Positions 20,146-59,180 of a DNA stretch of 64,000 bases are shown in pieces. Source of the DNA: Candidatus Thorarchaeota archaeon MP11T_1 (lineage in GTDB: Archaea > Asgardarchaeota > Thorarchaeia > Thorarchaeales > Thorarchaeaceae). Each line of letters starts with the position of its first letter. Positions within the stretch are counted from its first letter, which is position 1. Under the pieces are notes generated by a model. The model was given only the letters and a program-made list of their open reading frames with translations, did no database searches and was not told the DNA's origin. The DNA is taken from assembly GCA_002825515.1 (NCBI GenBank), contig PJET01000003.1:29887-93886 (forward strand), read 5' to 3'. The translations under genes were made by a program, and so were the position numbers.

Positions 20146-20148
20146 TAT

Positions 20149-23688: not shown

Positions 23689-23702
23689 TTCTTAACCTCC
23701 AG

Positions 23703-38983: not shown

Positions 38984-39004
38984 GTAAATGAGTAGTGATT
39001 CTAA

Positions 39005-42924: not shown

Positions 42925-44055
42925 ATGCCTATGTCCAGCAGTAATGAAATGGTTGAATTTTGGCAGGGAAACCAAGCTTGTGCAGAAGCTGCTATTGCTG
43001 CAGGTTGCAGGTTTTTTGCAGGGTATCCTATAACACCGGCATCAGAAATTGCTGAAATCATGTCAGTCAAGCTTCCTAAGATCGGAGGAGTGTATCTTCA
43101 GATGGAAGATGAGATTGCAGCCATTTCTGCTGTTATTGGTAGTTCATGGGGTGGTGTGCTCTCAATGACTGCAACTTCAGGCCCTGGGTTTAGCCTGATG
43201 CAAGAAAATATTGGATATGCCATTATGACGGAAACACCTTGTGTTATTGTGGATGTTCAAAGAGCTGGGCCTAGTACTGGTCAAGCTACAAAGGCAGCGC
43301 AAGGAGACTTTATGCAAGCCAGATGGGGCACACATGGAGATTATGAGAGTATAGTACTTTCTCCCAATTCTGCTCAAGAAACTTATGAACTCACACTAAG
43401 ATCTTTTGAGCTATCAGAAAGATTGAGACATCCTGTTATTCTGTTATCAGATGAGATTGTAGCGCATTCGCGGGAAAAGGTTGTAGTCAATAGAAGTGAG
43501 GATATTTCAGTAAAAAGAAGATATGCAATGAGAGGAGATCTACCTTATGGAGCAGTTGATAGTGAAGGGCATGCACTCATGCCAAGATTTGGGGATGGAC
43601 ATGATTTACTCATTACAGGGTCTACTCATAATGAAATGGGACTGCGAAAAACCGCAGATCCAGAGGTGCATAATAATTTGGTTCGCAGATTATCGACTAA
43701 GATTCAGAATGCTTCTAGTTTCTTGGAAGATTATCAACTTACAGGTCCTGCAAGAGCTAAATGGGGGATTGTTTCATTCGGCTCAACATCAAGGTCAGTG
43801 GATGAGTTAATGACTAGTGACTCGAAGCCAACACTGCGATCTTTAAGACTTCGAACATTGTGGCCCTTTCCGGATGATGCAGTAAGAGAATTCGCCAAAA
43901 CTGTTGATAGGTTATTAGTTCCAGAGCTAAGTCTTGGTCAGCTATCAAGAGAAGTAAATCGGGCTGTGCAGGGGTTGGTGGAGGTTATTCCTTTGAATAA
44001 GATTGGTGGAGGACTGATGATTGAACCAGATGAGATTCTTTCTGTGATATCATAG
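42925..44055 (+). CDS. korA: 2-oxoacid:ferredoxin oxidoreductase alpha subunit (KorA-like), orphan
   Basis: About 376 residues. N-terminal pyrimidine-binding domain with CRFFAGYPITPASEIAE, MEDEIAAISAVIGSSWGG, and TATSGPGFSLMQENIGYA; C-terminal transketolase-like domain. The alpha subunit carries no TPP pyrophosphate site; that is on beta. No korB, gamma or delta gene is adjacent, so the partner must lie elsewhere. Start at ATG 42925 or 42931. The last 118 bp overlap the convergent Ig-like gene. Confidence 0.88.
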   Translation: MPMSSSNEMVEFWQGNQACAEAAIAAGCRFFAGYPITPASEIAEIMSVKLPKIGGVYLQMEDEIAAISAVIGSSWGGVLSMTATSGPGFSLMQENIGYAIMTETPCVIVDVQRAGPSTGQATKAAQGDFMQARWGTHGDYESIVLSPNSAQETYELTLRSFELSERLRHPVILLSDEIVAHSREKVVVNRSEDISVKRRYAMRGDLPYGAVDSEGHALMPRFGDGHDLLITGSTHNEMGLRKTADPEVHNNLVRRLSTKIQNASSFLEDYQLTGPARAKWGIVSFGSTSRSVDELMTSDSKPTLRSLRLRTLWPFPDDAVREFAKTVDRLLVPELSLGQLSREVNRAVQGLVEVIPLNKIGGGLMIEPDEILSVIS

Positions 44056-45749
44056 TCTTGACTTTCTTCAGAGATTGCATATTTTTTGGAAATCGTGGTA
44101 TCATCTGTTGTAATCACGATAGTGATATTTGTGCGCATCCAGACTCTAATAGAGACTGAAATATTGATTTTATTGAAAAACTGGCTACTAATTATGAAAG
44201 TGATATTATGAATACCTGGTAATACCCAAGTTGGAAGTAAAATTACTTGAGATGTGCTTGTATTGATGATGCCAGTTATTGCAAAAGGACTAGTAAAATT
44301 ATCGCAGAATAATGATATATTGGCCAAGGATACTATTTGATTATTATCATCGAGAATGTCTAGATTAAATTCTAAAGTTTCCGTATAATATGCGGTTTCA
44401 TCTGATATATTTGCTATCATTGTTCCAGTTACAAAAAGATTGATCTCAGGAGTCACCGTAAATTGGTAGTACTCATTTATGGAGGATATGTATACAGTAT
44501 GTTGTCCGACTGAGATGTTGGGCAAGATTAGAATTGCAATAAAACTTGGTAAATTAGGTTGAACATAAGATATTTGCTCAAAATGTAGCGCTTCATCAAT
44601 GAATTGAAGTTCTATTGATTGATTCCAATCAAGAAGTGGTTCAACTAGGAATTCTATAGTAACATTTTCACCTCTTTTGACATTCCAATATGGCCGGATT
44701 GATGAGAATTGTAGCTGGTTGGGTAGTACATCTACAACAGATGTTGTATTGACAGTCTGGTATTGAGAATTGATTGCAGTGAAATTGATTTGATAAAGTC
44801 CGGGACTAGTATTGAAAGGAATTATACTTGAATATCGACCATTTCCCAGATTTGTTAATATTCCAGACCCAAAAGTTGTGATCCATTGAATTGTACTATC
44901 ATTTATAGCTCTGGCTTCTAAATCAGTATGTTCTACTATTATTTCAGCCTGTTCGAACTGGTCTCCATCAGGTGATTGACAATATACTGATACAGGGGAT
45001 GTAATTATTGTCAAATTGGATATTGAGGGAAGAACTGTGACTTGAAACAAGTCCGTAAAAGGAAGAAAATCCTCGTTTCCATAGCTGGAAATTGTTAGAT
45101 TATATAAACCGGGAGATCCTAATGACTCGTTCCAATTGAATTGTAATACACCTTCTGAGGTTGTGGTTGTGTTCTTATGCAATATTGTCTGTGAATTCGA
45201 ATCCTCAATATGTAATGTAACAATTTCATTTGCATAGACTATGTTGTTGTTATGTGAACTAGCTATTAATAGTGAGAGCGAGGTGTTCAATCCATATTGA
45301 ACTGAGAACGGTGATAACGGAATTACAGTGAGATGACCCCTATTGATTGTAATTTCAATATTATCGCCAGCGCTCTGATATACTGTATCGAAAATTTCTA
45401 CTGCAAATATGACAAAAGATTGTACTCCAGTTTCGCCAGGAGAGGTGTGATTTGGCATAATGGTGTATGATGAATTTAAGTAACGGATTGTAGGAGATGG
45501 GGGAATGAAATACTCGTCCGCAAAAGATGGCCCAATATCAGTCACAACAGCGATTGAAACATAGCACCACCCTTCATCGCTAAAATCTGCGGTAAGTTTC
45601 GCAACCATGTCAATTGTTTCTCCAACCTCGTAAACCAATTTATCTGTTTCAAAGTATTGAAAATCAAAATAAAACGCTGAAACTGGAATAGTGAAGCATG
45701 TAATAAAGAGAACAGAAATCGTGAGAAATGCTGTTACTTTTCGTTTCAT
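43938..45749 (-). CDS. Secreted Ig-like repeat protein without membrane anchor
   Basis: 603 residues. N-terminal signal peptide (MKRKVTAFLTISVLFITCFT), then at least four beta-sandwich modules rich in N-x-S/T sites (for example FETDKLVYEVGETIDMVAKL and WNVKRGENVTIEFLVEPLLD). Unlike the paralogue-like gene at 49706-51673, no transmembrane segment is present at the C-terminus. The last 40 residues are read from DNA overlapping korA and look non-native (SSGSIISPPPILFKGITS). It is presumably a surface or secreted adhesin-like protein; family not recognised. Confidence 0.7.
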   Translation of the reverse strand: MKRKVTAFLTISVLFITCFTIPVSAFYFDFQYFETDKLVYEVGETIDMVAKLTADFSDEGWCYVSIAVVTDIGPSFADEYFIPPSPTIRYLNSSYTIMPNHTSPGETGVQSFVIFAVEIFDTVYQSAGDNIEITINRGHLTVIPLSPFSVQYGLNTSLSLLIASSHNNNIVYANEIVTLHIEDSNSQTILHKNTTTTSEGVLQFNWNESLGSPGLYNLTISSYGNEDFLPFTDLFQVTVLPSISNLTIITSPVSVYCQSPDGDQFEQAEIIVEHTDLEARAINDSTIQWITTFGSGILTNLGNGRYSSIIPFNTSPGLYQINFTAINSQYQTVNTTSVVDVLPNQLQFSSIRPYWNVKRGENVTIEFLVEPLLDWNQSIELQFIDEALHFEQISYVQPNLPSFIAILILPNISVGQHTVYISSINEYYQFTVTPEINLFVTGTMIANISDETAYYTETLEFNLDILDDNNQIVSLANISLFCDNFTSPFAITGIINTSTSQVILLPTWVLPGIHNITFIISSQFFNKINISVSIRVWMRTNITIVITTDDTTISKKYAISEESQDYDITERISSGSIISPPPILFKGITSTNPCTARFTSLDS

Positions 45750-45871: not shown

Positions 45872-46237
45872 ATGACAATTAGACTCAAGACTGCTGTCAT
45901 AGACTCTGTTGAGGAAACTGAAACAAGAAGATTAAAGCTATTGAAGGTGTCTTCTAAAAGTGATGGTGCAACGCTTACATTGGAACTGCCTGATGCACTG
46001 TCTGATACATTAAACACCAGTGATTCAATCACAGTTGTTATTGATTCTAAACCTATTACAAAAGGTGAGCAAGCAAAACTCTACATTGAGGGTAGTGTTT
46101 TCAAGAAATCGGAGAAAGATGGTCTAGAAGTTATTGGATCAGTAGGTGGATTGCGATTAGTCTTCTCGCTTGCAAAAACTACTCCAAGCCAAAGTAATGT
46201 TTTCAACTCTGAGAAGTTCTTTCTGGCAATAATGTAA
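45872..46237 (+). CDS. rpoG: RNA polymerase subunit RpoG (RPB8-like)
   Basis: 121 residues. Beta-rich; TIRLKTAVIDSVEETETRRLKLL, LTLELPDALSDTLNTSDSIT, AKLYIEGSVF and EVIGSVGGLRLVFSL match the archaeal Rpo8/RpoG pattern, where GSVGGLR corresponds to the RPB8 FGGL segment. It is found in Crenarchaeota, Korarchaeota and Asgard archaea. ATG with GAGG about ten bases upstream. Confidence 0.82.
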   Translation: MTIRLKTAVIDSVEETETRRLKLLKVSSKSDGATLTLELPDALSDTLNTSDSITVVIDSKPITKGEQAKLYIEGSVFKKSEKDGLEVIGSVGGLRLVFSLAKTTPSQSNVFNSEKFFLAIM

Positions 46238-46410: not shown

Positions 46411-47454
46411 GTGTGGTTCTTGACTGATGGAACATGTGAATCTCGTTTGACAGATTCGAAGTCTTGTCCTGATTGCAGCGGCTTTCTAGTCACCAGTCGT
46501 GGACATATAGTATGTGCTGAGTGTGGTTTAGTACTCTCAAGAGAATATGTTTTACCCACATATCAGATGGGGGAAAAACCTAACAATGACACTCCTGATG
46601 CAAGTATGTATGTATCTCTGGGAAATCGTATGCATATTGTGGATGGTCTCGGTAGTTACATAGGTTTTCACAAAGACAAGTACTTTCAGGACGCTCAAGG
46701 ACAGGCATTGTCTGGAAGAATGCAAAAGAAGTTCAAACGTTTGAAGACAATATATAGTACTAGAATAAGAATTGGTAAAAATGAAGCAAAGTATAGAGCC
46801 TTGCGAACCCTCAATCATGTATCGAAACTTCTTATGATTAATGAGCAAGTTCGTGATCGAACAGCATATCTTTACAAGAAAGTGGTAAATGAAACTGCAG
46901 GAAATGTCAGCAATAACATTCTCTTGGTAGCAGTCTGTCTTCTTATGGCTGTAAGAGAGTTCAAGGATGAAGCTCCAATAACACTTGATGAGATTGCTGA
47001 TGTGTTTGAAAAATGTGGGCACCGAGTCAATGTGAGAGCAATTGTGCGAGAAGCTCTCAGACTCAAATCACTTACTGGTTACTCGCCTGAAATACGAAAA
47101 CCAGAGGACTATGTTCCGAGAGTTATTTCCATGTTGATGAATAACTCAAAAGTAGTCAATAAGATTCAATCAAGAGGCTGGAAAAAGAAAGACTATGAGA
47201 ATGCTCTTAGAAACAAGATACTGAGTGTTCTCAAGATAATTCCAACTTCGAAGCGAGGCGGAAGAAATCCTTTCATATTTACTGTTTCAGCAGCCTATGC
47301 CAGTGATCGGTTAATTGCAATGGATTATGGAAAACGGGCAGTTTTGACTCAGAAACTTGCATCAACTGCAACAGAAGTGGCTGAGTACAGTATCAGAGAC
47401 CATTTTGGTATGATGAAAAGAGTCATCGAATTGTCTCATGCAAGTATCCAGTAA
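46411..47454 (+). CDS. tfb: Transcription initiation factor TFB
   Basis: 347 residues. N-terminal zinc ribbon CPDCSGFLVTSRGHIVCAEC, B-reader/linker region, then two cyclin repeats (residues about 130-330) with NNILLVAVCLLMAVREFKDE and FIFTVSAAYASDRLIAMDYG. It recruits RNA polymerase to TBP-bound promoters. The cyclin repeats are diverged from typical archaeal TFB, suggesting a paralogue. GTG 46411 start; TTG 46420 is an alternative. Confidence 0.88.
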   Translation: MWFLTDGTCESRLTDSKSCPDCSGFLVTSRGHIVCAECGLVLSREYVLPTYQMGEKPNNDTPDASMYVSLGNRMHIVDGLGSYIGFHKDKYFQDAQGQALSGRMQKKFKRLKTIYSTRIRIGKNEAKYRALRTLNHVSKLLMINEQVRDRTAYLYKKVVNETAGNVSNNILLVAVCLLMAVREFKDEAPITLDEIADVFEKCGHRVNVRAIVREALRLKSLTGYSPEIRKPEDYVPRVISMLMNNSKVVNKIQSRGWKKKDYENALRNKILSVLKIIPTSKRGGRNPFIFTVSAAYASDRLIAMDYGKRAVLTQKLASTATEVAEYSIRDHFGMMKRVIELSHASIQ

Positions 47455-47528
47455 TCGAATCTGTTCACATAGGAGATTATCTTGGAATTCTATGTATGAA
47501 TGGCTGTAGCTATTAGGTGGATAATCAA

Positions 47529-49223
47529 GTGAACTCAAGTTTTCATGTGATTCATTGTTTGAGTAGACGGTGTGAAAAATGCCCTGAAAGAAGTGAGTAT
47601 GGTTGTTTGAAACTTAGGAGTATCAAAGAATCAGGAAATGGAAAATCAAAGATAATCTTAGCTGAAGCTGAGAGAGGATTAATACACTTCTGTGATTTAT
47701 ATGAGTTAAAACAGACTGAACCTTCTTGGAGAAGTGAAAGCTGGGAAACAGTTTTCATAGGTGTCAACAATCAACTATTCGAAGGATTAGAGGAAGTACT
47801 TTCAATATACAAAGTTGAATCCTATCTTTCGATATTCAAACGAAGTGAGTATAATCAGACGGAATTCATTACATATCCATTGGTTAAAACCGCTCTTGAG
47901 CAATCTCTCATTGTGGATCTAAGTCATATATCAGTTCAGATTGGAAGCAGTATGTCTTCATTGAGAGAAGGTGTTACTCAAAAACTGAAAAAGACTACTG
48001 AAGATATTTCTAATCACATTAATAATCTAATACCAGAGATTAACGCAGCTAGAAGAACAATACTCTCAGAAATTATTGCTCATCGTCGAAATGTTCTCGG
48101 ACCAATAATCCCAATCATTCTTGATGATATGATAGAAGAGATTTATCTTGACAGTCCTGAATCCTCTGTATACTTCGATCATCAAAAATTTGGTAGGTGT
48201 ATTACCAACATTGTTTTTGGAAAACATGAGATACCAAAGATTATCACATTAATTCGTGCTGAGAGTAATCTTCACCTTGATAAACGCAACCCTTCTCTAA
48301 AGACCGATTTACAGATTTATAATGCTTCAATGCGTTTTTCTGCAAGTGTGCCACCACTTAGCCCTGATGGGCTACACCTTGAGATTCGTAGAGCTAAAAA
48401 CAATGCATTTTCAGTTTATGATTTAATTGAAAATGAAACAATGACTCCAGAAGTTGCTGCGATTTTACTTTTTGCTGTTTCATGTCGATTTAATATTACA
48501 GTAACAGGGGGACCTGGAGCTGGAAAAACTACTTTATTGAATGCTTTAGACATGACGACTCCAAAGTGGTGGAGAAAAATCTACATTGAAGATGCTATTG
48601 AAAGCAGAGAACAAAAAGATTCTCATCAAGTTCGATTTAGAGTGGACCCCATTGATGAACAATTGATAAAATTTAGTAAGAGCGATGAAATAGTAAAATG
48701 TCTTCATAGATCACCAGATTACCTTATTCTTGGAGAAATACAAACAGCTGAACATAGTAAAGCTCTATTTCAGGCCATAACTGCAGGTCTTCGTACTATT
48801 CAAACCTGTCATGGTGAATCTGCTTCGGGTCTTGTATCCAGATGGAAGTTCGGACATGAAATTCAAGATGATAATCTTGCTTTAATGGATGTAATAGTCA
48901 CACTTGAGCGACCAATACCGGGTAAATCAAACCGTAGAGTAAGTGAGATTGTGGAAATAGAAAGAAGATTAGTAGATGGTTTATTGGAATTCTCGGGTCT
49001 GAATAAGGTGTATGATTATAATCAAGGAGTCAAAAACAACTGGTCACATGATGGAGCATTTATGACCCGTGCAAGAGACTTTGGAGTTGAAAGTCATATT
49101 CCAGCTCTGAGTTTCTTGACTGATATTATTCGTGACAATAAGTATCAAAAGAATCTTGACATACTGAGTGAAAAAATGTGGTCCTATGGACACCCCATAA
49201 GATTTGCTGAACGTGAAGCATGA
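47529..49223 (+). CDS. Type II/IV secretion (pilus/CpaF-VirB11-like) ATPase
   Basis: 564 residues. An N-terminal cysteine cluster (CLSRRCEKCPERSEYGC), a helical region, then a GspE-type ATPase: ARGPQ-like start at about residue 300, Walker A GGPGAGKTTLLN, acid box IEDAIE, Walker B LILGEIQTAEH, His-box region IQTCHGESA. Such ATPases power archaeal pili and the archaellum. GTG 47529 is preferred because AGGTG lies nine bases upstream. A pilin-like gene follows 3 bp later, supporting a pilus role. Confidence 0.9.
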   Translation: MNSSFHVIHCLSRRCEKCPERSEYGCLKLRSIKESGNGKSKIILAEAERGLIHFCDLYELKQTEPSWRSESWETVFIGVNNQLFEGLEEVLSIYKVESYLSIFKRSEYNQTEFITYPLVKTALEQSLIVDLSHISVQIGSSMSSLREGVTQKLKKTTEDISNHINNLIPEINAARRTILSEIIAHRRNVLGPIIPIILDDMIEEIYLDSPESSVYFDHQKFGRCITNIVFGKHEIPKIITLIRAESNLHLDKRNPSLKTDLQIYNASMRFSASVPPLSPDGLHLEIRRAKNNAFSVYDLIENETMTPEVAAILLFAVSCRFNITVTGGPGAGKTTLLNALDMTTPKWWRKIYIEDAIESREQKDSHQVRFRVDPIDEQLIKFSKSDEIVKCLHRSPDYLILGEIQTAEHSKALFQAITAGLRTIQTCHGESASGLVSRWKFGHEIQDDNLALMDVIVTLERPIPGKSNRRVSEIVEIERRLVDGLLEFSGLNKVYDYNQGVKNNWSHDGAFMTRARDFGVESHIPALSFLTDIIRDNKYQKNLDILSEKMWSYGHPIRFAEREA

Positions 49224-49226
49224 AAA

Positions 49227-49502
49227 ATGAATGTGACTTTTTTTGGGGAGCTTAAAAGGACTCGAAGAGACATGAGTTTAAGGTGGATTATTTTGGTAAA
49301 GGATGATAGTTTTCTACGTGATGAAAAAGGAGGACCATTGGTTGAAGAGAGTTTACTTCTTGGTCTTGCAGTGGTCACAGTTTCCATTGTGATAGCAGTC
49401 ATCCTTCAGGCTACCGGTTGGGCACAAGGTGTTGTAGAGGGGTTATTACAGCTTTTGCAAGACAGCTGGAGTAGTCTTACTCAATTGTTCGGTACACCAT
49501 AG
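49227..49502 (+). CDS. Pilin-like small membrane protein
   Basis: Up to 91 residues; the start is uncertain (ATG 49227, ATG 49272, or TTG 49350 with GGAGG four bases before). Residues KGGPLVEESLLLGLAVVTVS resemble a class III (Flp/type IV) pilin: G-G cut site, Glu at +5, then one hydrophobic helix VSIVIAVIL, and an amphipathic tail. It follows the secretion ATPase by 3 bp. Family assignment is inference from motif and position. Confidence 0.65.
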   Translation: MNVTFFGELKRTRRDMSLRWIILVKDDSFLRDEKGGPLVEESLLLGLAVVTVSIVIAVILQATGWAQGVVEGLLQLLQDSWSSLTQLFGTP

Positions 49503-49587
49503 TGAATGAGTTGTTTTTGTGGGGAAAGGCTTATTTGTAGAGTTCAAAACGAGCCCTATTGCGCTCCGGACTGGCAGTTCACCAACG

Positions 49588-49696
49588 GCTCCGGTAGAAC
49601 ATTGTATATTGATTACAGTGATACCGATTGTAGTCCGGCCCAGCATGGGGGACTCTCGATCCCCCGACCCGGGTTCGAATCCCGGCCGGAGCACCA
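49588..49696 (+). tRNA. tRNA-Glu(CTC) with a D-stem intron
   Basis: Acceptor GCTCCGG (49588-49594) with CCGGAGC (49686-49692), discriminator A and encoded CCA. Anticodon stem GGGGA/TCCCC around CTCTCGA (anticodon CTC). T arm CCGGG-TTCGAAT-CCCGG. The D stem GTGT/GCAT is interrupted between bases 10 and 11 by a 31-base intron (49598-49628). CGGT and ACCG form the central helix and 3-base bulges give cuts that restore GTGT. An earlier GCTCCGG at 49563 does not continue into a tRNA. Confidence 0.9.
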
Positions 49697-49705
49697 TTTT
49701 CATTT

Positions 49706-51673
49706 CTAGCCTACGAGATATCTTCGACGAATAATTGGTATGGACGAGATTCCAACAGAAACGATGATTGCGATTGTTAAGCCAGTGATGCCAATACCCT
49801 CTAATGATACTATATCAGCTATAGTTATTTCGATTAGGAATAATCCACTAGTCGAGAGTACTGATGTTGATGGTTCAGATTCATAGAATAAAACATAGTG
49901 ACCATTTGTAGATGGAACTCCGAAATGAAGTATAATCACACCTTTTTCATTGGTTATGGAAGAAAAGTTGAGATCTAGCCAAATGAAATTAATCTTGACA
50001 CCCTGAATTAATGAACCATTGAAACCCCTTAATGTGAGATGTACAGATAACTCATGGAGTGGAGTAATAATATCAAAAGAATTGAGCTCAAGTCGTATAG
50101 GCATTAAACGAGTAACCTGAAGACTATAATCATATTTGACAGGGGATTCGAATAGAGTGATATTCCCATTATATAATATCGAAATGATATACTGGTTTTC
50201 GATATATGGAACCGAAAAAGAAATGTTTGTTAGACCATTAGAGTCAGTTTCTAAAGAGAATTGGGATTCGTTGTTTATCAAAAGCTGGAGCTGTTTGAAA
50301 GAGAAATTTCCAGCCCAGTCTTCCATATGGATTTCGAAGAAAATCTCTTGACCTGGGGATGCATAGTGTTCAATATTGCAGTCAATGAGGGATATGTTTG
50401 GAGTTGACCAAGCTGTGAAATTACTTTTTGAACTAGTATTCATTAAGAAAGGGTTGCTTGTGATTTCGATGTTTAAAGTATGAATACCAGGAGGTCCATA
50501 GAGCTCATATTGGAAGATTGTAGTTAATTCAATTGAGCTTGAATATAGTGTGAGTCTCTGATTAGATACAGAATCGTGAATTATAATTAGGGATCTTGGA
50601 ATGGCTCTTGCAAATAAGTCAAAAACAGTTATTTCAACAACAATATTTGAACCAATATCAGCTGGAGTTGGTATATTGGTCATAATCTCTATTGGGCTTA
50701 ATACAGAAAGAGGGATTTCAAAATAGGACTCTGAAAACCGTTCTGTACCGTTATACTCAATTTTCAATATGTGAAGTCCTAATGTGAAACTTTCATCTAT
50801 TCTCATTTGGATGTGAGCAATTCCAGAATTGTTAGATATGGCAAAAAACAAAAATGTTTCATCTAAGAATACTTCAAGAAACTGATTCGGTAGCGAGTTG
50901 TTCTCTTGAGATAGCTCAATATACAAATCTACGGATTCATTAAGAGTAATTTCATTAGAAATTGGATTTTGAGGTATAAGCAAAGTAGGTTTTTTTGCTA
51001 TCTCGATTGTGAACACAATTTCTGATGAGTCTAAGAATTTATGCAGGTCTTGTTCGTAAACAACATGAATTTCATTATTTCCTATTGTTATCCATGAACT
51101 ATTACATTCTATATCGAAGTGGATGTTTCCAGAAGAATTGGTTGTACTTACTGCAAGAGGTATACTGTCCTTGAAAACTGTTATAGTTGCGTTTGATATC
51201 GAGTTGTTCGCATCATCCGATAAGTGGATGGTGAAAGATAGAATATCTCCTGGAGCTAGCAAATTGGGAACTTGGCTGATTTCAATGCTTGTAGATGATA
51301 CTATTGATAATACTACAAATTGACATGAGGGGGCTAGTGATAAAGACTCATTACCATAGAATGTTGCATTGATAATTGTAGGTCCGAGAGGATGATTTAC
51401 TGGAATACTCCAGTCGATGAATGCAATACCACTAGTATTTGTTCTGTCTGAACCTATGTAGGTATTATATGTCTGATCAAAAAAGAATATTCTCTGATTT
51501 GGTACAGGATCTCCATAAGTGCCATTTTGAAAGAGTGTTACAGTTATTGTAATTGTTTCCCCTCTAATTACAACTGTTCCGTCTTCTGCTATAACAGATT
51601 CAGTGTCAAGTACAGCTAATGAAAGCGAGAGTAAGACTATGAAAATACTTGGGAGCCAATATGATCGTTTAAT
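49706..51673 (-). CDS. Ig-like repeat surface protein with signal peptide and C-terminal anchor (ATT start)
   Basis: 655 residues when started at an ATT codon (51671-51673). Starting there gives a signal peptide beginning KRSYWLPSIFIVLLSLS, like the KRK start of the 43938-45749 protein. The body has several Ig/FN3-like sandwich modules with many N-x-S/T sites. A C-terminal helix (GITGLTIAIIVSVGISSIP) followed by RRRYLVG anchors it. AAGGGGGT sits seven bases upstream of ATT. No ATG, GTG or TTG occurs in frame between the upstream stop and 51262, which would delete the signal and first domain. Confidence 0.72.
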   Translation of the reverse strand: MKRSYWLPSIFIVLLSLSLAVLDTESVIAEDGTVVIRGETITITVTLFQNGTYGDPVPNQRIFFFDQTYNTYIGSDRTNTSGIAFIDWSIPVNHPLGPTIINATFYGNESLSLAPSCQFVVLSIVSSTSIEISQVPNLLAPGDILSFTIHLSDDANNSISNATITVFKDSIPLAVSTTNSSGNIHFDIECNSSWITIGNNEIHVVYEQDLHKFLDSSEIVFTIEIAKKPTLLIPQNPISNEITLNESVDLYIELSQENNSLPNQFLEVFLDETFLFFAISNNSGIAHIQMRIDESFTLGLHILKIEYNGTERFSESYFEIPLSVLSPIEIMTNIPTPADIGSNIVVEITVFDLFARAIPRSLIIIHDSVSNQRLTLYSSSIELTTIFQYELYGPPGIHTLNIEITSNPFLMNTSSKSNFTAWSTPNISLIDCNIEHYASPGQEIFFEIHMEDWAGNFSFKQLQLLINNESQFSLETDSNGLTNISFSVPYIENQYIISILYNGNITLFESPVKYDYSLQVTRLMPIRLELNSFDIITPLHELSVHLTLRGFNGSLIQGVKINFIWLDLNFSSITNEKGVIILHFGVPSTNGHYVLFYESEPSTSVLSTSGLFLIEITIADIVSLEGIGITGLTIAIIVSVGISSIPIIRRRYLVG

Positions 51674-51765
51674 TATGTGTACCCCCTTGGGGATAGTATG
51701 AGTGTCTTTTTGGTTGTAGTATAGTAATTGAGATTAAGAGAAGCAGTTTGTGTGTTCAGACATAG

Positions 51766-51773
51766 ATTATATG
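51766..51773 (-). promoter_or_regulatory. TATA-like box for the Ig-like surface gene
   Basis: ATATAATC on the reverse strand, about 95 bp upstream of the ATT start, in the divergent space with the VirB4-like operon. Confidence 0.4.
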
Positions 51774-51833
51774 GCATTGCTCCTCTAATGCTTCATCACC
51801 AATTCATCAGTTTGTTTCTAGGTTTTTATTCTC

Positions 51834-51841
51834 CTATATAG
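51834..51841 (+). promoter_or_regulatory. TATA box for the small ORF and VirB4-like gene
   Basis: CTATATAG lies 44 bp before the ATG of the 24-residue ORF. Expected transcription start is near 51862, leaving a short leader with a strong Shine-Dalgarno. Confidence 0.5.
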
Positions 51842-51877
51842 TGACTATCGTTGTGTGATTTGTTTGGGGGTGTTCTT

Positions 51878-51952
51878 ATGCTTAACAGGGGTACGATGGT
51901 TCGGTTCCTCAAGCAGTTAATCATGGACTTAAAAAAGAATGAGGATTCATAG
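51878..51952 (+). CDS. 24-residue leader/small protein coupled to the VirB4-like gene
   Basis: ATG preceded by GGGGGTG with a 5-base gap, a strong Shine-Dalgarno. The peptide starts MLNRGTMVRFLKQLIMDLKK and ends in NEDS; it is a basic amphipathic helix with no membrane span. Its stop TAG is immediately followed by the ATG of the VirB4-like gene, so the two are translationally linked. It may be a leader peptide or a small subunit. Confidence 0.55.
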   Translation: MLNRGTMVRFLKQLIMDLKKNEDS

Positions 51953-54900
51953 ATGCCATTTCACATTTCCCAATCAGAAGATACAGGAATAGTTTCTTCT
52001 CATGATGTATATCGAACTAGAAAATCGTGGTTGAATCTGATCTGGATTATTGGAACCATTTTTTCTGGACTCTATCTATTGTTTGTTTATATCTTGCCAT
52101 TGAGTGGATTGATTAGCACTCCCTTCATTCCCTTAAAGACGTTTGTTGAAATTCTTGTTTGTTTAATTCCAGTTTTTTCAGGATTGTCATATGTTATGAA
52201 TCAGATTCACCTTCAGATTCCTTTGGTTTATGTTGAGGATAATACATTACTAATTCAACTTGATGATTATATGATTGGTACGTGTTGTCTTGATGTTGTA
52301 TCAGTATCTGGTTCAGTTTATCTTGATGATAATGGAAAACCAAAGTACATTGATAGTCTATTATTGGCAATGCGTGCAGGAATGAGTGACTCAGTCACTA
52401 TGGCTTTCGAAGCAGGTGTATCAAATGATGAACCATACATACGTTTTTTCGTAACTACAACTGGTGATTACTCAGAGCAAATTCATGATATTCTGAGAAG
52501 AGAAGCTACCAGAATAGAAGCAATCCTTTTGTCATCTCTAAATAATGTAGAGCTGAAACTGTTGGAAAAGGAGTCATTACTACATGTTGTTTTGAGTCAT
52601 TTGGAGGAAGTAAGTATCGAATCACAAAAGGTAGTTACCAGAGGAGATATCGGGCTAACAGGTATAATGACATTGCAAGGATTGCCGCGGGTTTTCCCAA
52701 CTCAGGAAACTTCACAAGTAGGGACTTTTATCTCAACAGCTCTCAGACAAGGATATTCAACAAGTATGACCTGTGTATTTTCTGCAGCTAAACCAGGAAA
52801 AGAAACACGTTTACTTGAAAGTCAATGGAAGAATATTCAGGTAAAGGAAAAACGGAAAGAAGAGTCTCTAAAAGATTACGCAGAAAAGAAAAGACTCATG
52901 GCACGTTATGAAGAAATCCAAGATAAGGCTGGTTGGTTTGATGCTACTGTGTATTTTAAAACAAAAGTGCCTAACAGAAATCAAATTGATGCTCATTTAG
53001 ACGCGGTTAGCGGTCTAATTCATTCAATTTGGGGTAGTGATGATTCTCTTAAGCTTGCTCGTCATAAAGTATCAAAGCGAACTATATTTAGGATATTAAC
53101 TCGACGTCATTTGAAACGTCAACGTTTGCATATAGCTCGATTATCAGCTTTTATCAATACACCAATTCAACAGTTACCTGTAATCACTCCAAGAGAAACT
53201 CCAATCTTTCCAGTCCCTCAGAAAAAGTCGGTAGATAATGACCTTGTTATCGGAGAAACTGTATTTGGTGGTCGTCGATTATCGAGTGTAGGATTAGAAA
53301 TTAATTGGTTAAGGGAACATGTAGCTATCTTAGGTGCTACTGGAACTGGAAAAACAACAGTTGTGAAACATCTCATGGCTCAATTGAGTACGAAAACAGA
53401 AGTACCTTGGTGGGTATTTGATATCAAGGGTTCTGAATATCTTGATCTTATTGATTATGACGAATCAAATGTTCTCATTCTTAGGCCAGGTTTTGATACC
53501 TCTTTTGTGATTAATCTCATTGATGATGAAATGGTAGATGATGAAAACTATGCACATTCTACATTTGTAATATTGAGAGAGTTATTGAATGAAAGAGGGG
53601 ATTCATCTGAACTTTCTCCAGCAATGGAAAAATTACTTCGAGATTCTTTAATGAGAATGGTTGATTCACTTGATAGAGAAAATTCGGTTCAATCTTTAGT
53701 TAGTATAGTATCAGAATTGGCAAGTAATGATCGTTTAGGAAGTATGACTAGAGATGCTTTACTCAATCGTCTTGAAATACTGACTCGTGAACCACTGGGT
53801 TCAATACTTGGCGGTGGAACTACAACTGTACGATTTTCAGACTTGCTGAACAAACGTGTTATCTTCGATCTTTCATATGTTGCACGAATAGGAGGAATGG
53901 ATTCCGCTCGGCTTCTTTACAATCTTGTTGCTAAGCGTATATTTGATAGTGCAATGAAACGAGGTGTCACAGAAGGTTTGTGTCATGTTGTTGTGTTGGA
54001 GGAGGCAAGTAATCTCGTACCGGAGAGTTATACAAGACACTCTGCTGCAGATGTGACAACTGGGGAATCTATGGTGATGTTACAACGGGCTACTGGACAG
54101 GGTGTAATTGTGATATCAACAAGACCTAATATCTCTTCAAACATTCTCGCTAATACTTCAACTAAGATAGTATTTCGTTTACCATATGATAGTCAGGTTG
54201 GTGGAAGATTTCTCTCCTTGAATGAAGATCAAGAACAATATCTTAGGATGTTAAAACGGGGAAGAGCATTGATGAGTATACCCCACACTGAAACTTTTGA
54301 AATTGCTACAAAGCCATTTCATGATTCTTTGATACGCAAAAAGAAAATCATCCTATTTGAAGAGAAATCCATTCCTAGTACTGAGGAGTCTATATCAAAG
54401 AAGAACGAGGATTCTGTAAGCATACAAAATCAATCTGAATCTGATAAAGATGTAAAGGAGCAAACACTTGTCTTTAACAGACTCGATAGACTTGGGAGTC
54501 ACGTAATCGCATTCTTGGCATCAGAAGATTGGGCAACAGAAGAAGAAATTCGAAATCTTCTCTCAGTTATAGATACTAATGTTGTAGATGATGATATATC
54601 AGAAGTAATTCGGAACCTTGTATCATTGGGTAGCATAGAGAGAGAGGCTCTGTCGCTTGTCGATGGAGGATTTATTTTTGCCCTTCCAGGAAAAGCTCTG
54701 AATGCTGTAAAATGTGTGATTGCTGAGTATATATCGGGAAGACTTGGACTAGAATTCAATCATTCTATTGTTTCAGAGCATCCCGAGTGGCCAGATATTG
54801 TACTTGAAAATAGAGCTGTGGTAATTATTCCCGAACATCTTAGAGCATCATCATTACCATTAACATTAGAGAAGATACGTAAACAAATGAACCGGCTTCA

Positions 54901-55747
54901 AAATGGTGTAAACGAGCTTATTGTTGTTGTTAGAGGTAGTGTAGCTGCTGCTAAGTTGAGAGAATTAATGGATTCATCAGAGGAGTTTAATGACGTTAAC
55001 GTTGTTTCAGCATTTCCGAGGTCTCTAGATTCTGTGATTGAAGGCCTAACTCATGAAATTGATTTATCCAAAGAAACTTCGATTCAAACAAAATTAACAG
55101 ATGATGAAAAATCGAGTAGACAATTGGATTTGATTGGTGCTATGCATGATGTAGGATCTGCAACAAATCGAGCTATTCAGATTCGATTATGGTTTGGACT
55201 AATTCAGGATTTGGTTGACATTTCTAATGGTCAAGTTAAATGGGAAGAATTGTTAGAATTCATTGAAACTACAGCTTTACAGTCATTAAGAGGGAGAGCA
55301 GCTCCACTGAGTGTTGAAGAAGGAAAACGTGCCTTAACGGAGCTTTTAGCTGATGAGGTTTTGATTGCATTACGTGTTAATGAAGATTCTCAATTTGTGG
55401 AACTTACAGATGGTCTTTGGCTAGTAAATTCTTCAGTTCTAAAGAGCCTAAAAGAAAAGGCAATTCTGAATATGAAAGAGGAACTGAAAAAACGTTATTC
55501 CAAAGTTGAAAGAGATCATGGATATTATGACCTTTGTGTTAGTGAATCATCGTATGTTATTTTTCCAAATCAACAACAATTGAATACGCTTCTGCATTTA
55601 CATAGTGATATTGCATGTAGAGTATGTAAATCGAAAAAAGTTGTGTGTATCCTAACTGCAGCAGAATATCTGGAAGAGAGTGTGACAAAACCTAGTAATC
55701 TAATTGTCAAGACGATTGATGATAGAATATCAGCTTTTGCAACTTGA
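51953..55747 (+). CDS. Membrane-anchored VirB4/HerA-family ATPase (CedB-like)
   Basis: 1264 residues. Two N-terminal membrane helices (around residues 26-52 and 64-84). A large middle domain with a helical insertion and KLARHKVSKRTIF segment. ATPase: Walker A GATGTGKTT (about 461-469), DIKGSEYLDL, Walker B VVVLEEASNL (about 680), TGQGVIVISTRPN. A winged-helix pair (about 840-920) and a PD-(D/E)xK-like segment EHPEWPDIVLENRAVVIIPE (about 940, lacking a clear E-x-K) close the protein. The layout resembles CedB/VirB4 translocases with a large extra C-terminal part. GAGG precedes the ATG. Confidence 0.85.
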   Translation: MPFHISQSEDTGIVSSHDVYRTRKSWLNLIWIIGTIFSGLYLLFVYILPLSGLISTPFIPLKTFVEILVCLIPVFSGLSYVMNQIHLQIPLVYVEDNTLLIQLDDYMIGTCCLDVVSVSGSVYLDDNGKPKYIDSLLLAMRAGMSDSVTMAFEAGVSNDEPYIRFFVTTTGDYSEQIHDILRREATRIEAILLSSLNNVELKLLEKESLLHVVLSHLEEVSIESQKVVTRGDIGLTGIMTLQGLPRVFPTQETSQVGTFISTALRQGYSTSMTCVFSAAKPGKETRLLESQWKNIQVKEKRKEESLKDYAEKKRLMARYEEIQDKAGWFDATVYFKTKVPNRNQIDAHLDAVSGLIHSIWGSDDSLKLARHKVSKRTIFRILTRRHLKRQRLHIARLSAFINTPIQQLPVITPRETPIFPVPQKKSVDNDLVIGETVFGGRRLSSVGLEINWLREHVAILGATGTGKTTVVKHLMAQLSTKTEVPWWVFDIKGSEYLDLIDYDESNVLILRPGFDTSFVINLIDDEMVDDENYAHSTFVILRELLNERGDSSELSPAMEKLLRDSLMRMVDSLDRENSVQSLVSIVSELASNDRLGSMTRDALLNRLEILTREPLGSILGGGTTTVRFSDLLNKRVIFDLSYVARIGGMDSARLLYNLVAKRIFDSAMKRGVTEGLCHVVVLEEASNLVPESYTRHSAADVTTGESMVMLQRATGQGVIVISTRPNISSNILANTSTKIVFRLPYDSQVGGRFLSLNEDQEQYLRMLKRGRALMSIPHTETFEIATKPFHDSLIRKKKIILFEEKSIPSTEESISKKNEDSVSIQNQSESDKDVKEQTLVFNRLDRLGSHVIAFLASEDWATEEEIRNLLSVIDTNVVDDDISEVIRNLVSLGSIEREALSLVDGGFIFALPGKALNAVKCVIAEYISGRLGLEFNHSIVSEHPEWPDIVLENRAVVIIPEHLRASSLPLTLEKIRKQMNRLQNGVNELIVVVRGSVAAAKLRELMDSSEEFNDVNVVSAFPRSLDSVIEGLTHEIDLSKETSIQTKLTDDEKSSRQLDLIGAMHDVGSATNRAIQIRLWFGLIQDLVDISNGQVKWEELLEFIETTALQSLRGRAAPLSVEEGKRALTELLADEVLIALRVNEDSQFVELTDGLWLVNSSVLKSLKEKAILNMKEELKKRYSKVERDHGYYDLCVSESSYVIFPNQQQLNTLLHLHSDIACRVCKSKKVVCILTAAEYLEESVTKPSNLIVKTIDDRISAFAT

Positions 55748-55748
55748 T

Positions 55749-56543
55749 TTAACATTGAATCTTTGTGCAGGTAATTGATTCATTTTGTAGTAACAATCTA
55801 AGACGATTAGGTACTGTCAGATTAAAGATAATGATTTCACGATCTTGCTTTGCAATTGCAAGGAGCTCGTTTACTTTCTTCGTCATACCACCAGTGACAT
55901 CAGTATTGATTGAAGGTCCTGTTTTGGATAGAATAATTTTCTTGTTTTCTTGGTTTATGATGGGGACGTGTTTAGCTGAAGGATTAAGTTTTGGATTATC
56001 GTCCAAGACTCCATCAACATCAGTTCCAATGAGTACTGATTTTGCATTCATATGTTCGGCAAGAAACATTGCTATTGTATCACCACTGAGGATAGATGCT
56101 GTTCTTTTTTCATCAAAACAAACATCACCATGTGTTATTACGACTAGTCCATTATTCAATGATGTTTTAATAATATCAGTTGGAAAATTATGTATAAGGC
56201 CATTTTTTAGAGTAACAAAACAAAAAGGAGAAAATATTACTGCAGGTATTCCTTTTTTGTTTAGAATAGTTTCTACAGAAGATGCAAGTATTGACATATT
56301 ATGACGTATTGGTGGAATACCTTTCAAGAGAAGTTCTTTGGGACTTTTTGAGTCAGCAAATCCATACAAGTGAGCAGCCTGATGACCATGAGCTCCACCA
56401 CCAAGAACAATGATTAATTCACCTCTATATGTTTGTAATTCTTCAGCAATCCGGTTTAAATTCGCTTTGTTGATTTTTGGAGGTGATGATTCTTTGTAAG
56501 TTATCACCGATCCACCTAATTTTACAATTGTGAGGTATGTCAA
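55749..56543 (-). CDS. ipk: Isopentenyl phosphate kinase
   Basis: 264 residues from TTG 56543 (LTIVKLGGSVITYKESSPPK). Amino acid kinase fold with IVLGGGAHGHQAAHLYG (family glycine loop and catalytic His), ITHGDVCFDE, SGDTIAMFLAEHM and a DVTGGMTKKV end motif. Makes IPP from IP in the archaeal mevalonate route. The longer frame upstream (to 56660) has no convincing start. It is divergent from uS10. Confidence 0.9.
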   Translation of the reverse strand: MTYLTIVKLGGSVITYKESSPPKINKANLNRIAEELQTYRGELIIVLGGGAHGHQAAHLYGFADSKSPKELLLKGIPPIRHNMSILASSVETILNKKGIPAVIFSPFCFVTLKNGLIHNFPTDIIKTSLNNGLVVITHGDVCFDEKRTASILSGDTIAMFLAEHMNAKSVLIGTDVDGVLDDNPKLNPSAKHVPIINQENKKIILSKTGPSINTDVTGGMTKKVNELLAIAKQDREIIIFNLTVPNRLRLLLQNESITCTKIQC

Positions 56544-56625
56544 TTGTATCACGTATATCAAGAGGTGAGGCATGCTTATGGACGTTACTTTCTTTAAGTT
56601 AGAATACGTCACACACAAGACAAGC

Positions 56626-56637
56626 TTTTTATCCAGT
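56626..56637 (+). promoter_or_regulatory. TATA-like promoter for uS10
   Basis: AGCTTTTTATCC about 55 bp before the uS10 ATG, within the divergent space with ipk. Position and sequence only. Confidence 0.4.
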
Positions 56638-56685
56638 TCAGATTTGGAGGCATTTGACACCTCGTTATTATTGAGGGATTCTTAA

Positions 56686-56997
56686 ATGACACAAAGAGCA
56701 AGAATCAGATTATCAAGCACAAGTACAGAACACCTAGATGGTGTTTGTAATCAAATTAAGAGGATTACTCGCAAGACAGGTGTCCGGATGGCTGGTCCTA
56801 TTCCGTTGCCTACCCGTAGAATGGTTGTGCCTACAAGAAAAACTCCTTGTGGTCAAGGATCTGAGTCTTGGGACAAATGGGAAATGAGGGTCCATAAAAG
56901 ATTAATCGACATTGATGCAGATGAAAGAGCCATTCGTCAAATCATGCGTGTACGAATTCCTGACTCTGTGTATATTGAAATAGAATTAACTGGTTAA
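56686..56997 (+). CDS. rps10: Ribosomal protein uS10
   Basis: 103 residues; [40 protein letters not shown] and [15 protein letters not shown] are diagnostic of S10. It is isolated from the usual EF-1A gene, which is not adjacent. glmS follows after 68 bp on the same strand. Confidence 0.97.
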
Positions 56998-57065
56998 TTT
57001 CACTGATACAAACCCTTTTTGCACAATTATGCAAGAATTTCTACTACTCATGAGGTATCTCAGAG

Positions 57066-58889
57066 ATGTGTGGAATAATTGCTGTAGTGCAAGAACGTGG
57101 TGCTGTTGCTCCATTCCTTCATCAAGCCCTAAAACGGCTTGAGTATCGTGGTTATGATTCAGTTGGAGTGACAACTATTGCGAATGGAGTGTTATACACC
57201 AAAAAAGACAAAGGAAAAATCGAAGAAGTTCACAAACGACTCAATCTTGACGAGATGCCGGGATTAATCGGGATTGGTCATACTCGATGGGCAACTCATG
57301 GGGCACCATCTATGCCAAACGCACATCCGCATTTTGATTGTGATAATAAGATTGCGGTCGTTCATAATGGTGTAATTGATAATTTCATAGAATTGAGAGA
57401 AGAGCTAAGTGAGAAAGGACATAGGTTCAATTCAGAAACCGATACCGAGGTTATCCCTCACATGATTGAAGATTTTATGAAAGATGGGTTCAGTCTGATA
57501 GAGTCTATTAAGGAAGTTACCAAGCGTATTGAAGGCACTTACGCAATAGTGGCTATGTCAATCGAGGAAGGTGACAAGATAGTATGTACACGTGATGGTA
57601 ATCCTTTAGTCATTGGAACTAAATCTGGAGCCTCGTACGTTTCTTCAGATATTCCTGCATTCTTGCCTATGACTAGTGATATGATTCTGCTTTTGGATGG
57701 AGAGATTGCTAGTCTAACAACTGAGGGTATTCATATTGAGAAACTGTCAGATGGGGGAGTAGTAGAACGTGAAACTATCAAAATTAGTTGGACTGCTGAT
57801 CAGGCACAAAAAAGTGGATATCCTCACTTTATGTTGAAAGAGATACATGAGCAACCTAATGCAATTAAAGAAACACTTAGAATTCGGCCAGAGAACATTG
57901 AAGAAGCTGCCAGAATAATTAAAGAGTCTGAAAATGTGTATATGCTTGCAATGGGTACATCAGGACATGCTGCGCAGGCAGGGCGCCATATGTTTGCGTC
58001 ACTAGCAGGTGTACTTCCATCATTTGAACTAGCAAGTGATTTTCCAGATACAGTATATGGTTCATTATCAGAGAAAGATTGTATTATTGCAATTACACAG
58101 TCGGGTGAAACCACAGATACGATCACCGCAGTCAAATATGCTAAACAACATGGTGCAAAAATTGTAGCGATTACTAATGTGGTTGGAAGCTCGATAACTC
58201 GTCTTGCTAATCATACTATTATAACCCAAGCTGGACCAGAGATAGGTGTAGCTGCAACAAAGACTTTCATGGTTCAACTTACTTCTCTGGCTTTGATTGC
58301 ATTAGCATTAGGAGAAATGGTGAGTTTTAAAGAGTCTAAGGAGCTTTTAGAAAAAAGGGACTCTTTAGAGAAAATGCCTGAGCTTGTTTCTGAAGTTATT
58401 TCAAGAAATGAGGAAAAAGCTAGAAGATTGGCTTCAATCCTATATGAGAAACCAAGTCTTCTTTTCTTAGGAAGAGGTGTTTCTATAGCAACTGCTGAAG
58501 AGGGAGCACTGAAACTCAAAGAGATATCTTATAATCATGCAGAAGCCTATTCTGCTGGTGAGTCAAAACATGGTCCTATTGCACTTGTTCAGGACGACTA
58601 TCCTGTCATATTTGTGGCTCCTTCTGATGATACCAGGAATCGGATTGTTGGTAATATAATGGAAATGAAAGCAAGAGGTGCAAGAATAATATCTGTAATT
58701 CAGAAGGACGATTATGAGATTGCAGGTTTGTCAGATTATGTGTTCACAATTCCAGAATTGGTAGAATCGGAATTTTCTGTGATACCATATATTGTTCCTT
58801 TGCAATTGTTCAGCTATTATATGGCTTTGAGAAAAGGTTTTGATCCTGATAAACCACGAAATCTAGCAAAGTCAGTCACTGTTCTTTAG
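57066..58889 (+). CDS. glmS: Glucosamine-6-phosphate synthase (glutamine-dependent)
   Basis: 607 residues. The amidotransferase begins MCGIIAVVQERG with the catalytic Cys at position 2 (1 after Met removal), plus HTRWATHGAPS and NAHPHFD. Two SIS domains follow with MGTSGHAAQAG and QSGETTDTI. It makes glucosamine-6-P from fructose-6-P, and pairs with the GlmM-like gene at 5094. GAGG precedes the ATG. Confidence 0.96.
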   Translation: MCGIIAVVQERGAVAPFLHQALKRLEYRGYDSVGVTTIANGVLYTKKDKGKIEEVHKRLNLDEMPGLIGIGHTRWATHGAPSMPNAHPHFDCDNKIAVVHNGVIDNFIELREELSEKGHRFNSETDTEVIPHMIEDFMKDGFSLIESIKEVTKRIEGTYAIVAMSIEEGDKIVCTRDGNPLVIGTKSGASYVSSDIPAFLPMTSDMILLLDGEIASLTTEGIHIEKLSDGGVVERETIKISWTADQAQKSGYPHFMLKEIHEQPNAIKETLRIRPENIEEAARIIKESENVYMLAMGTSGHAAQAGRHMFASLAGVLPSFELASDFPDTVYGSLSEKDCIIAITQSGETTDTITAVKYAKQHGAKIVAITNVVGSSITRLANHTIITQAGPEIGVAATKTFMVQLTSLALIALALGEMVSFKESKELLEKRDSLEKMPELVSEVISRNEEKARRLASILYEKPSLLFLGRGVSIATAEEGALKLKEISYNHAEAYSAGESKHGPIALVQDDYPVIFVAPSDDTRNRIVGNIMEMKARGARIISVIQKDDYEIAGLSDYVFTIPELVESEFSVIPYIVPLQLFSYYMALRKGFDPDKPRNLAKSVTVL

Positions 58890-58922
58890 GTCTTTAAATT
58901 ATGTCAATCATTAGAGTATAAT

Positions 58923-59180
58923 GTGAAACCAATGTGGTTGTTTTCGATTCTTAGTCCTTTGACTGATTTCGCGAATCTGATAACGGGTTATTTTATGGAA
59001 ATTTGGGACTTCCTGATTTTCATAGGGAATATTTCAGCATTCATAGTCGTATTAGTAGGTGCAATTTTATGGTTTACAGGTATTAATGACAAGAGGGGGA
59101 AGGGATTGGTTTTCAGCGGCATACTTCTGGCAATCATTGTTCAATACTTTATTTTCTATCCACCTTCATTTATTTTATAG
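58923..59180 (+). CDS. Small two-helix membrane protein, VirB2/CedA1 pilin-like
   Basis: 85 residues (GTG 58923; ATG 58932 alternative). Two hydrophobic helices (IWDFLIFIGNISAFIVVLVG... and LVFSGILLAIIVQYFIFY) are joined by a short basic loop INDKRGKG, the topology and size of TrbC/VirB2-type pilins and archaeal CedA1. Its last 6 bp overlap the convergent NifS-like gene. The VirB4-like ATPase is 3.2 kb away. Assignment is inference from topology; no signature residues are decisive. Confidence 0.55.
   Translation: MKPMWLFSILSPLTDFANLITGYFMEIWDFLIFIGNISAFIVVLVGAILWFTGINDKRGKGLVFSGILLAIIVQYFIFYPPSFIL

Follow-up and report, generated by a model that had tools for sequence, protein, structure and literature searches.

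A 64,000-nucleotide stretch of a contig from Candidatus Thorarchaeota archaeon MP11T_1, here called the window, carries a gene block that combines a Tad-type filament module, a module resembling a type IV secretion system (T4SS) and Ig-like proteins. These lie in one block in Thorarchaeota-like genomes, while in other Asgards varying subsets of them are found close together. We read them as one chromosomal cell-envelope machine with partly scattered genes, in which a type IV pilus module and a VirB4/VirB2-like module are predicted to serve cell contact and DNA exchange; we give this reading an even chance of being right. The initial annotation had proposed a surface or DNA-exchange machine of the Ced/Ups kind. 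Its idea of a machine is borne out in part, in that Asgard type IV pili have links to a VirB4-like ATPase and two-helix hairpin proteins; its membership of Ced is not supported. We found no earlier account of such an Asgard gene set in the literature searched, which consisted of open-licence papers.

The window belongs to a Thorarchaeota-type Asgard contig, and the closest named locus found is SMTZ1-45 (L001), with 82% identity in the 1264-amino acid (aa) ATPase of the block. All genes named in the initial annotation are present and intact. The block reads porA, Ig-like protein, rpbG-like, TFIIB-like transcription factor (TFB), the pilus ATPase TadA, a 91-aa protein, a second Ig-like protein, the 1264-aa ATPase, ipk, uS10, glmS, an 85-aa protein and sufS (Table 1). 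For comparison we used 148 genomes (numbered G, their loci L) of the same phylum, taken from a larger group and including the complete chromosome CP070658 (L009, which is G001). The Thorarchaeota-like set comprises 34 genomes picked on their matches to the 1264-aa ATPase. Genome counts for the Flp-like pilin, HerA-like proteins and TadA are counts among the matches listed. At E ≤ 1e-20, HerA-like matches occur in at least 116 of the 148 genomes and TadA matches in at least 129, both counts taking in more distant ATPases of the superfamily. Structures were modelled for the 1264-aa ATPase and the 85-aa hairpin protein; helices in other proteins were counted with a simple hydropathy script.

Close pairing and fusion of genes in other Asgards support a connection between pilus parts, hairpins and VirB4-like ATPases. 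Hairpin genes lie 52, 62 and 55 bp upstream of an ATPase relative, on the same strand, in G016, G024 and G032, respectively. These ATPases share 29-36% identity with the window ATPase over the aligned part, and that of G032 is split in two frames. In G026, G053 and G064 a single chain of about 150 aa has a Flp-like pilin in its N-terminal and a hairpin in its C-terminal part; the two are tandem genes in G018, G034 and G059, and their matches adjoin at a contig end in G041. A TadC-like gene then follows in G041, G053 and G064. In G086 and G146 TadA is directly followed by the gene of a protein of 173-180 aa that matches the hairpin and has three to four helices; in Thorarchaeota-like genomes (L078-L082, mid-locus) a membrane protein of 169-172 aa, also matching the hairpin, stands beside what is, by eye, a likely A-ATPase subunit B. 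Larger groupings occur as well. In G016 a TadC-like gene (T2SSF E-value 0.0064, under cut-off) overlaps by 1 bp a gene related to that of the second Ig-like protein, Ig_49706. G025 holds a hairpin, TFB, a split TadC, TadA, a weak Ig-like protein, orc1 and an ATPase relative within 15 kb, and G108 a TadC-like protein, TadA, a weak relative of the first Ig-like protein (Ig_43938), a Flp-like pilin, an ATPase relative and TFB within 18 kb, with no hairpin match.

The same proximity appears in counts across the genomes. The best HerA-like and best TadA matches are at most 30 kb apart in 48 of 105 genomes with both. Outside the Thorarchaeota-like set this holds for 17 of 72 genomes (17 of the 20 with both on one contig), against 1.4 expected under random placement in 3 Mb genomes with common descent ignored. 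Hairpin matches lie within 30 kb of a HerA-like match in 35 and of a TadA match in 33 of the 63 genomes used (out of 65 bearing hairpins); outside the set the figure is 7/29 for each. In these hairpin counts, G118, G130 and G142, which have strong hairpin matches and no ATPase row among the matches listed, were placed outside the set. The genomes are related and the trials not independent; the types of arrangement point to several independent cases rather than many.

The block itself was found whole or in part in 40 relative loci when we carried out the synteny comparison that the initial annotation had proposed. Gene order is kept in most of them, several end at contig ends and four are rearranged (L013, L028, L030 and L032). 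The pair formed by Ig_49706 and the ATPase is retained in all four, and none of 15 other searched genes lies between the two in any locus with both, rearranged loci included. The 91-aa gene is apart from TadA in L028 and was not found in L032. Housekeeping genes travel along in the rearranged loci, staying close in L028 and L032. This would be consistent with two independent neighbour systems caught in a slowly rearranging orc1/RFC/ribosomal block, namely a Tad-like adhesive pilus (TadA, TadC, Flp-like pilin, TFB and Ig proteins) and a membrane-anchored DNA translocase for segregation or repair. An orc1 relative with RFC-like and truA-like genes near TadA in L102 fits this explanation too, as do the facts that HerA-type proteins are common DNA translocases and that the ATPase relatives of G016 and G024 score best with HerA_antiphage. 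Against it stand the fusions of Flp-like pilins with hairpins and the hairpin-ATPase gene pairs, which directly join the modules, and the Foldseek ranking of VirB4 above HerA for the ATPase model, with HerA-NurA as a separate gene pair. We consider two separate systems rather improbable. A mobile-element reading of the block was set aside, given the ribosomal and metabolic genes inside it and its synteny across relatives.

The 1264-aa ATPase had been described as a VirB4/HerA-type protein with two N-terminal membrane helices. An AlphaFold2 model of residues 1-801 places these helices at residues 17-51 and 62-86. A Foldseek search with this model ranked full-length VirB4 chains of the R388 T4SS at the top (E-value 1.5e-20), above HerA; in a VIA alignment, compared as part of the 1-801 model, residues 88-800 align to VirB4 with a TM-score of 0.28-0.30 and a root-mean-square deviation of 14-16. 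The family is sizeable, with 240 homologues at E ≤ 1e-3 from 7993 scored candidates. A HAS-barrel gave no match at E ≤ 1 in this protein, and an adjacent HerA and NurA pair is encoded elsewhere in the window. Clustering with chromosomal HerA had been named as an outcome that would speak against the proposed system, and the ATPase does not behave as a HerA. It is not the cell's chromosomal HerA, and the model supports a fold that appears nearer VirB4.

Whether the ATPase could be a Ced protein was examined through NCBIfam, where its best match is CedD (59.7 bits, E-value 2e-16); CedB reached 18.2 bits against a cut-off of 700. The parts of the block are also of the same kinds as those of the Ced and Ups systems of Sulfolobales, which the cited passages describe as chromosomal and as combining a type IV pilus, a membrane ATPase of the VirB4/HerA class and a two-helix protein (PMC9905601, PMC11868833). 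A true orthologue of this crenarchaeal DNA import system would account for both. However, the CedD score falls far below its cut-off of 600 and covers the ATPase region only, the window's own HerA scores higher (68.3 vs 59.7 bits), and another ATPase beats the family of the window ATPase with CedD in all seven genomes searched (in G001, 70 vs 23 bits). We therefore dropped the CedD identity in view of those better-fitting ATPases, and CedD orthology is unlikely. For the Asgard set no CedA-type channel was found, no VirB6/TrbL match in seven genomes searched, and no CedA1 or TedC match by sequence or among the fold matches listed; it also differs from Ced in having pilus, hairpin and VirB4-like genes linked or fused. 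Orthology of the whole system with Ced/Ups is very improbable.

The 85-aa protein had been called a VirB2/CedA1-like two-helix protein. Its model is a hairpin of helices 5-52 and 56-78 (mean pLDDT 88); the VirB2 similarity is weak and at family level, and no CedA1 match was found. Homologues number 434 at E ≤ 1e-3 from 438 candidates. Matches to the hairpin profile occur in 65 of the 148 genomes at E ≤ 0.01, with divergent members in other Asgards, and Thorarchaeota-like genomes have up to four close copies and one longer relative. Among 13 diverse members, three matched TrbC/VirB2 (PF04956; best E-value 0.013) and two T4SS_pilin (PF18895; best E-value 6e-4), all under cut-off. TrbC and T4SS_pilin are the two commonest of 19 families matched, DUF4134 and others also having two. 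In a search with the hairpin family, 397 proteins were found at E ≤ 1; among the 120 matches listed, all named organisms are Asgard, and no tie to named non-Asgard pilins came to light. A VirB2-like protein is the best reading of these family resemblances, which are weak and fall short of proof. Instead of a pilin, the hairpin might be a VirB3-like protein that anchors the VirB4-like ATPase in the membrane, which would leave the other parts of our reading intact. Its two helices fit such a role, and the position of its gene directly upstream of the ATPase in G016, G024 and G032 recalls the virB3-virB4 order in the cited part of PMC12857230. But the window ATPase has two membrane helices of its own, and the hairpins are multicopy and fused to Flp-like pilins, so that we regard an anchor as unlikely. 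Two-helix proteins of 74-77 aa in L101 and L113 look alike by eye, had no hairpin-profile match and were left out of the final family search.

The pilus module includes TadA, for which the initial annotation had the right gene and a start at 47529; the start is at 47517, 12 bases earlier. Its matches in the PDB are GspE-like proteins, CpaF and FlaI, and cysteines C14, C19, C22 and C30 of its N-terminal part are invariant in 11 aligned sequences. The pilin-like frame of 91 aa was confirmed in its position right after TadA. Residues P37, E40, E41, L43, L44 and G46 are invariant in 12 aligned sequences, and the protein carries GG-PLVEE, which fits a predicted Flp-type cleavage motif. A glutamate at +5 after the cleavage glycine belongs to the motif of short Flp-type pilins. 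No Pfam or NCBIfam family matched the protein. Its true start is probably later than annotated, many homologues having 55-76 aa. Flp-like pilins lie less than 15 kb from TadA in 90 of the 91 genomes with both on one contig, both being present in 116 genomes.

A TadC-like membrane protein, listed as missing in the initial annotation, does exist; in Thorarchaeota-like genomes its gene lies apart from the block, and the 64-kb window has none. A search with an alignment of Asgard TadC-like proteins found this polytopic family at E ≤ 1e-5 in 108 of the 148 genomes; its members have weak T2SSF matches (E-values 0.0024-0.069, under cut-off). Of 69 genomes not in the Thorarchaeota-like set, 63 have a TadC-like gene no more than 5 kb from TadA; within the set, none of 31 does. 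Distances of TadA to TadC and to Flp-like pilins were taken start to start over all listed matches, with the first TadC matches of each genome used and later pieces of one gene dropped. G001 gave a fragmentary match only (E-value 5e-15), in a 222-aa frame in a partly masked stretch. A PF00482 search of the same genome yielded two weak matches (E-values 0.065 and 0.11), the better of which lies in what by eye is a CorA-type magnesium transporter frame, and was rejected.

If these parts do form one machine, TadA and TadC would power a thin, Flp-like filament by which cells are drawn together, and the Ig-like proteins may support the contact. The hairpins could form a VirB2-like pilus or line a channel, and the VirB4-like ATPase might power assembly of this pilus or conduit, or the passage of DNA. 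TFB, and perhaps a linked pair of Ras-like GTPase and Roadblock protein, may act as regulators. The likely result would be intercellular DNA exchange for repair, as in Ups plus Ced, for which the cited part of PMC11868833 proposes pilus contact followed by DNA movement.

Several observations weigh against this reading. The VirB4 family model TIGR00929 gave the 1264-aa ATPase 19.7 bits, far under its cut-off of 643.1. A fold search with the hairpin retrieved generic helical hairpins, and CedA1, VirB2 pili and TedC are absent among the 50 matches listed, which excludes nothing; a profile search of the PDB returned no pilin and no CedA1 or TedC chain. PF18895 matches are weak in 28 of the 148 genomes, mostly in longer frames, and none is over cut-off. 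The values of the Flp-hairpin fusion proteins (5.9e-4 and 0.0034 in this search, 0.0021 and 6e-4 in other runs) do not discriminate by themselves, because scores of like size occur in other frames of many genomes. Synteny alone is weak evidence of joint function, since housekeeping genes move along in the rearranged loci. The VirB6/TrbL channel (PF04610) was found in none of seven genomes at E ≤ 0.1, no CedA model having been run, and to this extent the absence of a CedA/VirB6-like channel claimed in the initial annotation holds; the longer hairpin-containing proteins are candidates only for such a channel. The relaxase PF03432 had weak matches, under cut-off, in two of seven genomes at E ≤ 0.1, other relaxase families not being searched. 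A missing relaxase would suit a chromosomal system that has been domesticated, but also a function that does not involve DNA.

We infer DNA transfer as the function of the machine. The lack of a clear relaxase (PF03432, seven genomes) and of a VirB6 match would also suit a machine for competence-like DNA uptake or for protein secretion instead of cell-to-cell exchange, built from parts that overlap with those proposed here, and the abstract of PMC6370729 mentions Flp pili in connection with DNA uptake. Yet a VirB4-like ATPase with hairpins resembles contact-dependent transfer machines, and we hold uptake or secretion to be possible, if on the doubtful side.

Other known systems share parts of the set. 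Ted of Thermoproteales likewise has one VirB4-type ATPase and a VirB2-like small protein, and HerA helicase genes are common in Ted loci according to the cited passages (PMC9905601), the HerA of the window being 30 kb off. No TedA-like channel was found in the Asgard set, and its block also holds type IV pilus genes. Clade 4D of Thermoproteales is described, in the part of the account cited, as an ATPase with an N-terminal cysteine domain, a protein of four to five helices, a TFIIB homologue and RPB8, without pilin or secreted protein and of unknown function (Makarova et al. 2016, PMC4858521). The Asgard cluster shares with it the grouping of RPB8, TFIIB-like and secretion-ATPase genes and the conserved cysteines in the N-terminal domain of the ATPase; it differs in that a Flp-like pilin comes after the ATPase and that TadC-like and VirB4-like genes exist. 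By gene content and cysteines, the cluster looks like a clade 4D-like core with a pilin beside it. Compared with R388 VirB4/TrwK, the modelled fold is alignable, whereas the Asgard chain adds two N-terminal membrane helices and about 470 C-terminal residues, is chromosomal and has a sequence match far under cut-off. With bacterial Tad/Flp pili the set shares a TadA-type ATPase, a TadC-like membrane protein and a short Flp-like pilin, and it departs from them in its linked VirB4-like ATPase and hairpin proteins.

Elsewhere in the window is a candidate regulatory operon of a Roadblock/LC7 protein, a 306-aa protein and a Ras/Arf-like GTPase. A related trio stands between TadA and a HerA-like ATPase gene in five genomes (G123, G108, G020, G019 and G096; loci L103, L104, L110, L111 and L112), of which one, G019, has a hairpin match. 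BLAST comparison with the window proteins covered the Roadblock protein of all five, the GTPase of four and the middle protein of three, and Pfam was run on the trios of L104 and L111. From gene position, the Ras-like GTPase/Roadblock operon may regulate the machine. MglA/MglB control type IV pili in Myxococcus, according to published abstracts. An Asgard-specific hybrid filament machine is conceivable, though we rate it as rather unlikely: Flp-like pilins and VirB2-like hairpins, sometimes in one chain, would be built into it by TadA/TadC with the VirB4-like ATPase, and GTPase and Roadblock proteins would steer it like bacterial MglA/MglB. If true, clade 4D-like pilus systems would gain the pilin they lack and a function, and the machine would be an early archaeal case of small GTPases of eukaryote type being coupled to a surface apparatus.

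Among known prokaryotes, Asgard archaea are the nearest relatives of eukaryotes. Their cell contact and DNA exchange would become testable through a conserved machine whose parts can be named. Fusions of type IV pilins with VirB2-like hairpins would join two filament superfamilies treated as separate, and a GTPase/Roadblock operon linked to the machine would point to a concrete candidate target for the small GTPases of Asgards.

Table 1. Features of the window and the evidence on which they are assigned (positions counted from the first nucleotide of the window)
Feature	Position	Strand	Evidence
Adjacent HerA and NurA genes, about 30 kb from the VirB4-like ATPase	18631-21312	-	HAS-barrel 18.9 bits (weak, under cut-off); NurA 83.6 bits (over cut-off)
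Candidate regulatory operon: Roadblock/LC7 protein, 306-aa protein, Ras/Arf-like GTPase	23110..25567	-	PF03259 E 1.4e-10; PF00025 E 3.7e-12
Ig-like secreted/surface protein (Ig_43938)	43938..45749	-	Weak FlgD_ig and MG2 matches, under cut-off; kept in block
RpbG/Rpb8-like RNA polymerase subunit, head of rpbG-TFB-TadA core	45872..46237	+	PF16992 E 0.026 (under cut-off); in relatives' block
TFIIB-like transcription factor (TFB), beside pilus ATPase	46411..47454	+	PF00382 E 4e-5 (over cut-off); PF08271 E 4e-4
Tad-type pilus assembly ATPase (TadA), 568 aa, GTG start	47517..49223	+	PF00437 74.6 bits (cut-off 24.9), E 7e-21; TIGR03819 E 3.5e-27 (under cut-off)
Flp-like short type IV pilin, 91-aa frame	49227..49502	+	GGPLVEESLLLG motif; starts 3 bp past TadA stop
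Ig-like surface protein (Ig_49706), divergent neighbour of the VirB4-like gene	49706..51682	-	Big_3_5 E 2.5e-6, under cut-off
VirB4-like membrane ATPase, 1264 aa	51953..55747	+	Two N-terminal helices, alpha/beta N-domain, HerA/VirB4-type ATPase, long C-terminal part
VirB2-like two-helix hairpin protein, candidate pilin, 85 aa	58923..59180	+	Model; starts 33 bp past glmS

Both Ig-domain genes of the initial annotation are there, their Ig matches being weak and under cut-off, and that of Ig_49706 had been called too short: similarity in one frame to the 658-aa orthologue of L001 reaches 51682. No ATG, GTG or TTG is found where this orthologue starts, though the frame is open to 51682. Between the pilin and this gene, at 49513-49696 (+), lies a possible intron-containing tRNA with a doubtful anticodon, reported by ARAGORN with introns allowed; the default scan and Rfam were silent. 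TFB lies at most about 4 kb from TadA in L097, L102, L106-L109, L111, L113 and L114, and 8-13 kb from it in L103, L104 and L112.

Two further loci contain hairpin relatives. In L145 (3838-8219) roughly 0.8 kb separates a hairpin paralogue from a 1069-aa membrane protein that matches the ATPase profile weakly (E-value 2.4e-5), and in L147 (223-1431) one part of a 402-aa frame is 60% identical to the window hairpin over 75 residues and the frame adjoins a 1048-aa gene. Proteins close in size to the 169-172-aa hairpin-match protein follow TadA in L098 and L100. Beyond the block, the window has an orc1/cdc6 gene at 41319-42536 (-) and, by eye, RFC-subunit-like and truA-like genes at 38039-41015; with their counterparts near TadA in L102, a wider conserved or replication-linked block around these genes is possible.

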